Source: Gammaproteobacteria bacterium (GTDB lineage Bacteria; Pseudomonadota; Gammaproteobacteria; Pseudomonadales; Pseudomonadaceae). From it: a stretch of DNA of 64,000 nucleotides. The stretch lies in the NCBI GenBank assembly GCA_012728415.1, contig JAAYFD010000045.1, positions 1 through 64,000 on the forward strand, written 5' to 3'. A program made the translations under genes and the position numbers. Shown here piece after piece: positions 27,311 through 30,433 of the stretch. Each line of letters opens with the position of its first letter. The first letter of the stretch is position 1. The notes beneath the pieces were generated by a model that searched no databases, was not told the origin of the DNA, and was given only the letters and a program-made list of their open reading frames with translations.

Positions 27311-28195
27311 ATGCGCCTGGTCATCGTTAGCGGCCGTTCCGGCTCTGGGAAAAGCACCGCCCTGGCCGTGCTGGAAGACAACAACTTTTACTGCATCGAC
27401 AACCTGCCGGCATCACTGCTGCCAGAGCTTGTCAACCGCACTTTGCTGACCGCCGAGCAGGCCCCGGCCCGGCTGGCCGTATCCATCGACGCCCGCAACC
27501 AGCCACAACACCTGGAGCAGGTGCCCGGCCTGCTGGCCAGTCTCAAAGAAAAAAACATCCCGTTCGAAATCCTTTATCTGGATGCCGATGATGCAACCCT
27601 GCTCAAGCGTTTCTCGGAAACGCGCCGTCGCCACCCCTTGACCGATCATGAGCGCTCGCTGTCCGAGGCCCTTGCTTACGAGCGCGAGCTGCTGCAGCAA
27701 CTGGCTGACGCAGCTGACATTACCATCGACACGACCCAGCTAAACCTCTACCAGCTGGGCGACCTGATCAAACTGCGGTTGCTGAACAAGCCCGCCTCGG
27801 GCACTGCTTTTCTTCTTAAGTCTTTCGGTTTCAAACGGGGCCTGCCCATTGAGGCAGACTTCGTTCTTGACGTGCGCAACCTGCCCAACCCTTACTGGCA
27901 ACCCGAGTTGCGCGCATACAGCGGATTCCAGCAACCGGTCATCGATTACCTGGACCAGCAAGAAGAAGTTCAGGAAATGTTCGCCGATATTCTGCACTAT
28001 CTGCAAAAATGGCTGCCGCGAGTCGGCGCCAGCAACCGTGCCTATGTCACCATTGCCATTGGCTGCACCGGCGGACAACACCGATCAGTCTATATGGTGG
28101 AACGTCTGGCAGCGAACTTGCGCCAGAGCATGGACAATATCCAGGTACGCCACCGCGATGCCAAAGCTTTCCAGCCCGGCCATGAATCGTCATAG
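27311..28195 (+). CDS. rapZ: RNase adapter protein RapZ
   Basis: In E. coli RapZ guides RNase E to the GlmZ sRNA and so controls glucosamine-6-phosphate synthesis. The 294-residue product has an N-terminal P-loop GRSGSGKST (8-16) and the conserved C-terminal domain with [10 protein letters not shown] and [19 protein letters not shown]. Whether it acts on an RNA here cannot be told from the sequence. Its end overlaps ptsO. Confidence 0.94.
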
Positions 28196-28478
28196 CTGCA
28201 CACTGCTGATTACCAACAAGCGCGGCCTGCATGCCCGCGCCTCGGCCAACTTTGCCAGTCTGGCCGCCAGCTTTCCCTGCGATATCCGCCTTGGACACTC
28301 ACCCGGCAAGCTGTGCAATGCCAAAAACATTCTCGAAGTCATGATGCTTGCCGCCAGCCCTGGTACCGAGCTGCACTTGCAAGCTGAGGGCGAACGGGCG
28401 GCCGAAGCCATTACCGCCTTGCAGCGACTGGTCAACGCCCGCTTCCATGAGGACCAGAGCTTCCCGGCAACGCCCTGA
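28182..28478 (+). CDS. ptsO: Nitrogen PTS phosphocarrier protein NPr
   Basis: This 98-residue HPr-like protein passes phosphate from PtsP to PtsN. The active histidine is His17 in [13 protein letters not shown]. The second HPr motif [16 protein letters not shown] lacks the regulatory serine of Gram-positive HPr, as expected for NPr. The ATG lies inside the last codons of rapZ. The 3' end overlaps the convergent SRAP gene by 47 bases. Confidence 0.93.
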
Positions 28479-29091
28479 TGCATTCGGGACCATCAACTTG
28501 CGGATCATTCACCAGAGTCGACACCTTGCGCTCCTGTAGCGGCTGTGCCGGCAATGCCAGCAGATTCAGCACTTCCTCATAGGTGGTGGCCGGGTCAAGC
28601 CAGGCATCCAGATCTGCTGCGGCAATCAGCACCGGCCGCCGCAAATAGGCAGCGGCACGTGTGAGCATGGCCAACCCCTGATATTCACGCCCGAATACCG
28701 GATACGGCTCCCACAGTGCGGCCATGTAAAAAAGCTTTTCCGGCCGACTCAACCAATAGGGCTGTTTGCGCGTCCCTGCCGTGCCACGCCACTCAAAAAA
28801 ACCGTTGGCCGGCAGCACAGCTCGACGACAGCCCAGTGCTTCGGAAAAAAACTCCTGCCCACCCACGGTCTCGCTACGCGCATGCTCCACCACATGGCTC
28901 AGGTTCTTCGACCAGCGCGGCGTAAAACCCCATAACGCTTGCTGCCACTGCCTCACCCCATCCGCTTTGCGCAGCATCCACACCGGCTGGCGCGGTGCAA
29001 TATTCCAGCGCGCTACGAAACCTGCCGGCAACTGCGGCAACTGCGGCTGCAGTGGCGCCGGCACATGGTAAAAACTGTAACGGCCACTCAT
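28432..29091 (-). CDS. SRAP-domain protein (YedK/HMCES family), possibly without catalytic Cys
   Basis: SRAP proteins crosslink to abasic sites in single-stranded DNA through a cysteine right after the initiator Met. The family is clear from GRYSFYHVP, RWNIAPRQPVWMLR, LWGFTPRWS, HARSETV and LPANGFFEWRG, which keeps the active-site Asn and Glu. However, the chosen ATG, with GGAAG seven bases upstream, is followed by Ser (MSGRYS) in place of the expected Cys. The usual HxRMP histidine motif is also replaced (YLRRPVLIAA). The 219-residue protein may bind DNA without forming the usual thiazolidine crosslink, or belong to a divergent subgroup. Confidence 0.85.
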   Translation of the reverse strand: MSGRYSFYHVPAPLQPQLPQLPAGFVARWNIAPRQPVWMLRKADGVRQWQQALWGFTPRWSKNLSHVVEHARSETVGGQEFFSEALGCRRAVLPANGFFEWRGTAGTRKQPYWLSRPEKLFYMAALWEPYPVFGREYQGLAMLTRAAAYLRRPVLIAAADLDAWLDPATTYEEVLNLLALPAQPLQERKVSTLVNDPQVDGPECIRALPGSSGPHGSGR

Positions 29092-29217
29092 AAACACACT
29101 TCCTTCCGGACCCCGGCAGACCGGAGCTGGCCAGTCCGCCCACATACAGCCTGTGCAGCACAAACACAGCCATGCTTCACACCGGCAAGCACACTGCCCC
29201 GCAGACAACAATCGGCG

Positions 29218-29223
29218 TATAAT
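29218..29223 (+). promoter_or_regulatory. Possible -10 box of the PlsC-like gene
   Basis: An exact TATAAT lies 52 bases before the start codon at 29276. CTGCCC about 18 bases upstream could serve as a weak -35. Confidence 0.4.
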
Positions 29224-29275
29224 AGCGCATTAATTCTTGCAGGCTGTCCGACACAGCCATGAAACAGAGAGACCC

Positions 29276-30433
29276 ATGGGTTCATTTGACAATATCCGTC
29301 CCTATAACGATGACGAAGTGGTGGCAGTGCTGCAGCGGCTAAGCACAGATCCTGACTTTCTCAATGTCATTCTACGCTATCGTTACCCGGCCCTGGCCAA
29401 CAGCCTGGGCTGGCTGCTGCGCCCACTGGTTGCCTGGCGCCTGCGCAAAGAAATTGCCGGCATCAGCAATATTGCCGACCTGCAGGCCCGGGTTGCCCCC
29501 TACGTCGAGCACTCGGTGAGAAAAGCTACCGACGGCATCAGCTTTACCGGCATCGACAATCTCGATCCGGATGGCGTACACCTGTACCTGGCCAACCACC
29601 GCGATATAGTAATGGACCCGGCCTATGTGAACTACGCCCTGTACCAGGCCGGCTTTGCCACACCGCGCCTGGCCATCGGTGACAACTTGCTGCAAAAACC
29701 CTTCATCAGTGACCTGATGCGTCTGAACAAAAGCTTCATCGTGCCCCGCTCGGTTACCGGACGACGGGAAAAGCTTGAAGCCTTTCAGCAGCTGTCCAGC
29801 TACATCAACCACTCCATGTTAAATGAGCACAGCTCTGTCTGGATAGCCCAGGCCGAAGGCCGGGCCAAGGACGGTGACGACCGTACCGATAGCGCCATCC
29901 TGAAAATGCTACACATGTCGCAACGCCAGCTCGACTTCGTTCCCGCCATTGCCCGGCTCAACCTGACGCCAGTTGCCATCAGTTACGAATATGACCCTTG
30001 TGATCTGGACAAGGCACGAGAGCTCTACATTCTCGCCACAACCGGCAGCTACGAAAAGCAGCCGGGCGAAGATGACGCCAGCATTGCCAAAGGCATCACG
30101 GGTTACAAAGGACGGGTTCACGTGCACTTTGACGCACCACTGACCAGCGGCTTTGCCGACGCCCGCGAACTGGCCAATCGCGTCGACCACCTGATCTGGC
30201 AGGATTACCGCCTGTTTCCCGTCAACTATCTGGCCTGGCATCAATGGAACAAACGCGATACCAGCCTGTCAGTACCCGCAGTTGAAGATGTCTTCAGCGC
30301 GGCCGAGGTGGAAAGTGCCCGCACTTTCTGGCTGCAGCGCTTGCAGCAATGCCCGGCGGAACACCAGCCCTACCTGGTCATGCAATACGCCAACCCGCTG
30401 CAAAATCAATACCGCAGCCTGGCAGCCCTTTAA
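29276..30433 (+). CDS. PlsC-like glycerolipid acyltransferase family protein
   Basis: This 385-residue protein belongs to a group of Pseudomonas proteins annotated as 1-acyl-glycerol-3-phosphate acyltransferases. The lipid acyltransferase core is seen in [15 protein letters not shown] and, further on, in [11 protein letters not shown], which resembles the EGTR-type block. The acyltransferase HX4D motif reads as HRDIVMD here, with five residues between His and the last Asp. No long transmembrane segment is obvious apart from a hydrophobic stretch near residues 40-55. The substrate is unknown. The start at 29276 has AGAGAGA upstream. Confidence 0.75.

Follow-up and report, generated by a model that had tools for sequence, protein, structure and literature searches.

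The window, a stretch of 64,000 nt from contig JAAYFD010000045.1 (GCA_012728415.1, a Gammaproteobacteria bacterium of the Pseudomonadaceae; its numbering is used throughout), encodes an SRAP-like protein in which, of the four catalytic residues, Glu105 alone is left. Our best reading, to which we assign a probability of about one half, is that the protein represents a Pseudomonadales SRAP-fold subfamily which no longer makes the stable suicide crosslink through a Cys2 thiazolidine but retains the fold and the remaining conserved residues, and which would act as a binder of ssDNA and AP sites, capable at most of a transient Schiff base or weak AP-lyase activity. Strong selection maintains the shape of the protein although most of the welding chemistry is lost, and the subfamily thus probably has a different job.

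A preliminary description of this DNA had noted an SRAP homologue with a Met-Ser-Gly-Arg start, and the gene is indeed a real open reading frame for a complete SRAP protein, located on the minus strand (Table 1). Membership of the SRAP superfamily follows from the PF02586 score (124.5 bits against a cut-off of 27.1) together with the fold match. The significant matches of the AF2 model (pLDDT 85.6) are SRAP structures only, with a Foldseek E value of 2e-14 to 6NUA and a VIA Z score of 23.6 to the C2A variant of YedK (8D2M). The ATG start (29089–29091) is preceded by a GGAAGG stretch, and the 46 codons upstream of it contain no stop. In-frame starts within this segment are one ATG (Met-Trp), a GTG (Met-Phe) and, further out, two TTG codons; formally, a TTG 24 codons and a CTG 26 codons upstream would be Met-Cys starts. 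The latter two were rejected because they place the Cys more than 20 residues ahead of the Gly-Arg that trails Cys2 in SRAPs, out of register with the motif, and because no such start is present upstream in either of the two nearest orthologues. Both of these are from Thiopseudomonas (75% and 58% identity), and both have Ser2. Neither an alternative start giving Met-Cys nor a Cys2 conserved in close orthologues, the two explanations against which the preliminary description had guarded, thus accounts for the residue, and on sequence grounds Ser2 is not a sequencing error. At its other end the gene overlaps npr tail to tail by 47 bp (28432–28478), and at its C-terminus the window protein exceeds the commonest clade length, 205 aa, by 14 aa.

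Table 1. Features of the SRAP-like locus in window coordinates
Feature	Position	Strand	Basis and remarks
SRAP-like CDS	28432..29091	(-)	219 aa, MSGRYSFYH...; PF02586 5.6e-36, 124.5 bits; AF2 pLDDT 85.6
Codon 2, AGT = Ser2, replaces crosslinking Cys2	29086..29088	(-)	Alignment and clade counts
His70, at place of catalytic YedK Asn75	28882..28884	(-)	Alignment; context H-A-R-S-E-T
Glu100 = YedK Glu105, kept	28792..28794	(-)	E105 in 110/110 clade members
Arg151-Arg152-Pro153 = YedK R162-R163-P164	28633..28641	(-)	Preceding His160 loop shortened
Cys204	28480..28482	(-)	Invariant in 80-row clade alignment; some canonical SRAPs have Cys204 too, so not diagnostic
184-bp head-to-head intergenic region	29092..29275	(.)	Without the DUF2007 and CPXCG genes common to most clade loci
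Acyltransferase (PF01553)	29276..30433	(+)	PF01553 6.7e-8; divergent neighbour conserved across clade
NPr/HPr-like phosphocarrier	28182..28478	(+)	PF00381 2.5e-24; tail-to-tail 47-bp overlap with SRAP-like gene

The active site was compared with that of E. coli YedK (MG1655 sequence) in an alignment into which only SRAP ORFs found by phmmer were entered (L057 was left out, and the frames of L038 and L042, both MTSR, were read by eye). At position 2, where crosslinking SRAPs have Cys, the window protein carries Ser; it has His at Asn75 and Glu at Glu105. The region of the HxRMP/HDRRP motif reads A-Y-L-R-R-P (xLRRP), and since the loop is about six residues shorter than in YedK, the catalytic His160 has no counterpart. 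The absence of Cys2 (AGT, Ser2) and of the HxRMP motif, and the retention of the Glu of FFEWRG (Glu100, YedK E105), all agree with the preliminary description. Its further claim that the active-site Asn remains was mistaken: the Asn in question belongs to NIAP (YedK N37), and the catalytic N75 is His70 here, a position that is H or Q in 110/110 clade members. At 20 positions with a conservation of 95% or more across 38 canonical SRAPs, the window protein changes three of the four catalytic residues and none of the 16 others (Fisher p 0.0035, a guide only, as intact catalytic residues were the criterion for the canonical set, whose rows are moreover related). The kept residues presumably contact DNA. 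Cys204 was considered as a substitute nucleophile peculiar to altered SRAPs and rejected, being present also in intact-site SRAPs (5/8; also L189, L220 and L221).

Scanning named genomes with an alignment of 29 rows turned up 80 loci, which are the best 80 of 591 confirmed relatives and come from Thiopseudomonas, Denitrificimonas, Pseudomonas, Azotobacter, Stutzerimonas, Serpens and MAGs (Gammaproteobacteria/Pseudomonadaceae); the nearest among these 80 is Thiopseudomonas denitrificans. The subfamily is present in P. aeruginosa PA7, P. putida, A. vinelandii and many other Pseudomonadaceae. Of two guesses at the locus in P. aeruginosa PAO1, PA4632 carries the listing Peptidase_M48 ('Proteolysis'), and PA4634 drew no papers. 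The clade has a sharp boundary, with 135 ORFs at 295 bits or more and every other match at 163 bits or less. The best out-of-family match reaches 154 bits in an order-wide sample (390 genomes), and the best outsider 157 bits in a class-wide sample (274 genomes), where all eight outsiders read have the intact C2/N75/E105/H160 site. Together with loci from our genome searches, the best 80, taken nearest to the window protein first, form a set of 110 distinct clade members. Of these, 53 have Cys at position 2, 52 have Ser and 5 have Thr, Cys2 thus being missing in 57, counts that describe this sample and not frequencies in nature. Position 75 is His in 93 members and Gln in 17, and Asn in none, while Glu105, R4, R77, R162, R163 and P164 are each found in all 110. 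The conservation of Ser2 that the preliminary description had proposed to look for in relatives holds for the two nearest orthologues but not clade-wide, where Ser2 (52/110) and Cys2 (53/110) are both common.

Among 36 genomes of the same family (G000–G035), 29 code for a protein closely related to that of the window, G007 and G023 for a more divergent relative in the same place, and G014 for another SRAP only; the remaining four gave no SRAP match at E 0.001 (one of them, G001, is 87% complete). Another SRAP is also held by 13 of the 29 genomes with a window-type SRAP. The idea that Ser2 occurs only where a canonical SRAP serves as backup was dropped, as no such pattern is seen (another SRAP in 8 of 19 S/T2 genomes and 5 of 10 C2 genomes, by hand count). 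A second SRAP gene, also sought at the suggestion of the preliminary description, was not found in the window's own genome (2.8 Mb, about 90% complete). That description left a choice between a non-crosslinking binder or lyase and a paralogue that has changed role, which are the right options, but because the own genome, 90% complete, shows no second SRAP, the protein is a paralogue of a canonical SRAP only across the wider family. Elsewhere, G662 (six) and G134 (five) have unusually many SRAP matches, which may be prophage or repeat copies. L035 (G013) has two other SRAPs, one with T75/Q105 and one with H75, Cys2 and His160 being kept in both, and L039 (G015:C2:458330-458974) is an SRAP match with a canonical start, a LexA box and an in-frame TAG.

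The clade protein is under purifying selection, with a median dN/dS of 0.10 and a maximum of 0.27 (197 of 200 pairs drawn from 299, 80–98.5% identity); for the window protein and T. denitrificans, dN is 0.17 and dS 1.15. On the clade tree, position 2 has changed between Cys and non-Cys at least four times, and Ser2 is encoded by both codon families (AGY 32, TCN 20). A small second residue permits loss of the initiator Met, and C, S and T, the only residues found at position 2 in the 110 members, are all small enough for this. A coupling of Gln75 with Cys2 was suggested by the raw counts and discarded, the association not being significant on the tree (three to four independent pairs).

Altered SRAPs also occur in other lineages of the order, referred to here as f8, g5, f36 and f37. 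In the family f8 (six genomes) the four positions read C2, N75, D/Q105 and T/G160, and in g5, a genus of the window's own family (two sequences), S/T2, S75, I/L105 and G160. All four catalytic residues are lost in the family f36, which has A/T2, C75, V/I/L/A105 and S/T/G160 in 17/17 loci read (the best match of each genome; L185–L186, L188, L192, L198 and L207–L218), and the one f37 sequence has A2, T75, D105 and S160. With the active-site columns and Cys204 excluded, these sequences and the window clade form one clade, both in a quick tree that included 29 of the 110 clade rows (55 rows, SH-aLRT 90) and in a careful tree from which three long-branch rows (L020, L031 and L193) were taken out (54/54 rows, bootstrap 100, SH-aLRT 91). 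Four changes between intact and altered sites suffice in all on both trees; apart from that of the subfamily, they fall on single sequences (L005 and two in L035). Because of the one clade and these few changes, the trees place a single alteration of the site in the subfamily, in this sample, after which different branches lost different residues. R4, P40, W61, W67, A76, E79, R95, W106, R162, P164 and W175 are kept in every branch examined; R77 is lost in g5. By majority residue, f36 has changed four of four catalytic positions and none of the 16 other conserved ones (p 0.0002, with an intact-site reference set and related rows).

The chemistry to be expected can be gauged from YedK, as described in PMC9436759. 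Without the Cys2 thiolate, SRAP yields AP-lyase products instead of crosslinks, and the C2A and C2S variants are trapped by borohydride as a Schiff base. Glu105 is the key residue for the lyase chemistry, C2A/E105Q being 25-fold slower than C2A and C2A/H160Q only 2.5-fold. His160 acts in ring opening, and its loss slowed crosslinking about 10-fold; residue 75 contacts Cys2, and the effect of N75A is mild. DNA binding is retained in the Glu, His and Asn mutants (PMC9436759).

Since the window protein resembles a natural C2S variant that lacks Asn75 and His160 and has the Glu, we expect binding of ssDNA and AP sites without a stable crosslink, and AP-lyase activity that is slow at most. On our best reading, the protein could not tie itself stably to AP sites in ssDNA through a thiazolidine, and by analogy with YedK the loss of His160 should slow ring opening of the AP site. 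ssDNA and AP sites would still be bound. More tentatively, removal of the Met could expose the α-amine of Ser2, which, helped by the invariant Glu100, might form a transient Schiff base with the AP site; β-elimination may then release the site, so that a slow AP lyase would replace the permanent cap. Some of the members that keep Cys2 (53/110) may still crosslink slowly. Speaking against lyase chemistry, Glu105 is gone in the sister lineages (V/I/L/A in 17/17 f36 loci, I/L in both g5 sequences), so that the subfamily, taken together, has no need of it. The operon partners described below, CPXCG and DUF2007, are not known repair genes, which also counts against our best reading.

An acyltransferase gene (PF01553) lies head to head with the SRAP-like gene in 107 of the 110 distinct clade loci with enough flank, and is unlinked in three. 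The gap is 831 bp or less in 97 of the 107 and 1.3–3.5 kb in the other 10. The acyltransferase link is common to f8 and g5, and was not found for intact-site SRAPs within the flank examined (1.5 kb for many). Between the two genes, on the strand of the SRAP-like gene, lie genes for CPXCG (PF14255) and DUF2007 (PF09413) proteins (Pfam run on examples), the latter family being described as 'putative prokaryotic signal transducing protein'. Both are present in 88 of the 110 clade loci, as in L154, L138 and L143, DUF2007 alone in 12, CPXCG alone in 3 and neither in 7; DUF2007 occurs in 6/6 f8 loci, CPXCG in 2/2 g5 loci, and neither in the 17 of f36. Because one or two genes usually occupy this space, only 14 loci had a gap below 400 bp in which to search for a shared motif. 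Both genes are missing from the locus in the window and in the other two genomes of its genus. A search of the entire own genome gave no DUF2007; the absence of CPXCG there is read from the missing neighbour, as the genome search was silent and its controls were silent too. On the far side of the SRAP-like gene, npr, rapZ, ptsN, hpf and rpoN are found in Thiopseudomonas, Denitrificimonas, the near relative G020 and some MAGs, and not in the other clade loci within the flank examined. In the 17 f36 loci the SRAP gene lies beside a gene for an M16 peptidase (17) and is divergent from one for a TetR-like regulator (17), behind which comes a PF01553 acyltransferase (16; Pfam assignment on L207 only) that was not matched by the acyltransferase of the window at E 1e-6.

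The LexA consensus is CTGT-N8-ACAG. This strict box was absent from 110/110 clade members within both 300 and 1000 bp upstream, and a looser pattern was found in 1 of 111 clade upstreams. The strict box is present in 6 of 34 other SRAPs, all six of the same family and with intact sites (the 34 were kept from 48 ORFs as distinct, having the start motif and exceeding 150 aa, and were compared together with YedK). We expect the window protein to act outside the SOS regulon.

A close rival to our best reading is a pure binder, i.e., a non-catalytic pseudo-SRAP whose groove takes up ssDNA or a different ligand, which has no N-terminal chemistry and serves as a sensor, regulator or scaffold, Glu100 having a structural role. 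It is brought close by the missing Glu of f36 and g5, which shows that the subfamily can do without even that chemistry, by the loss of all four catalytic residues in sister lineages where other conserved positions are kept (4/4 versus 0/16 in f36), and by the cluster with DUF2007 and CPXCG proteins, divergent from the acyltransferase. However, a Glu105 present in 110/110 members and a position 2 held to C, S or T are more than a pure binder needs, and we regard this account as possible, though on balance not probable. The head-to-head acyltransferase in 107/110 loci, the lack of a strict LexA box in all 110 and the PF01553 acyltransferase near the f36 loci, which are otherwise different (16/17; Pfam on one), could also mean that DNA has been abandoned and that the fold serves another ligand or partner tied to the acyltransferase. 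This appears unlikely given the retained canonical residues; moreover, slow rearrangement may be all that lies behind a conserved neighbour, the gap is as wide as 1.3–3.5 kb in 10 of the 107 loci, and the f36 acyltransferase is unmatched by that of the window at E 1e-6.

That the protein is still a crosslinker, forming a stable adduct through Ser2 or another nucleophile with His70 replacing His160, we consider very improbable. No residue other than His or Gln occurs at position 75 in the clade, and the YedK residue contacts Cys2, which would suit such a role, but the pairing of Cys2 with Gln75 is not significant on the tree, and SRAP is reported to form no crosslinks without the Cys2 thiolate, lyase products arising instead (PMC9436759). 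Hardly any weight can be given to gene decay or to an error in the sequence or start call, even though Thiopseudomonas lacks both partner genes, the C-terminus extends into npr, and the upstream TTG and CTG are formally Met-Cys. Three genomes of the genus, and the family at large, show an open frame and maintained synteny, the dN/dS of 0.10 and the window–T. denitrificans values (dN 0.17, dS 1.15) argue against decay, and the two nearest orthologues have Ser2 and no upstream Met-Cys start.

The second-position Cys has been described as 'absolutely conserved ... always the second amino acid' and as 'invariant' in PMC3765255 and PMC9436759, respectively. This rule contrasts with a selected subfamily that lacks Cys2 in 57/110 clade members and 17/17 f36 loci and has lost the Asn and His in addition. 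Among the matches listed, open-access titles and abstract openings held nothing on Cys-less SRAPs or on SRAP with DUF2007, most subscription papers being outside this range. For such genes, the Pfam name 'SOS response associated peptidase' would mislead. The subfamily offers a natural experiment that could tell the DNA-binding parts of the SRAP site from those that do chemistry, and poses the question of what SRAP does without crosslinking. A more far-reaching proposal, speculative and in our view rather doubtful, is that a suicide crosslinker has turned, in a vertically inherited subfamily, into a reusable or non-catalytic receptor for AP sites or ssDNA, forming a module with DUF2007 and CPXCG proteins and tied to the divergent acyltransferase. 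If true, a repair protein would have been re-employed in signalling, outside the SOS response.

Compared with E. coli YedK (PDB codes 6NUA, 6KCQ and 8D2M), the window protein has the same fold (Z about 23) and the same R4, R77, W106, R162, P164 and Glu105, but at about 25% identity it differs in having Ser for Cys2, His for Asn75 and a deleted His160 loop. The fold of the human HMCES SRAP domain is similarly close (Z 23.5 for 5KO9 and 23.2 for 6OEB), whereas HMCES has the crosslinking Cys2 (PMC9436759) where the window protein has Ser. The other altered Pseudomonadales SRAPs (f36, f8 and g5) belong to the same clade, and f8 and g5 have in common with the window clade the acyltransferase as well as a single one of its two operon partners; the subsets of the active site that were lost differ, f8 retaining Cys2 and Asn75. 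As in the engineered YedK variants C2A and C2S (PMC9436759), residue 2 carries no thiol and Glu105 is present, but the window protein is natural and vertically inherited, and is without Asn75 and His160 as well.
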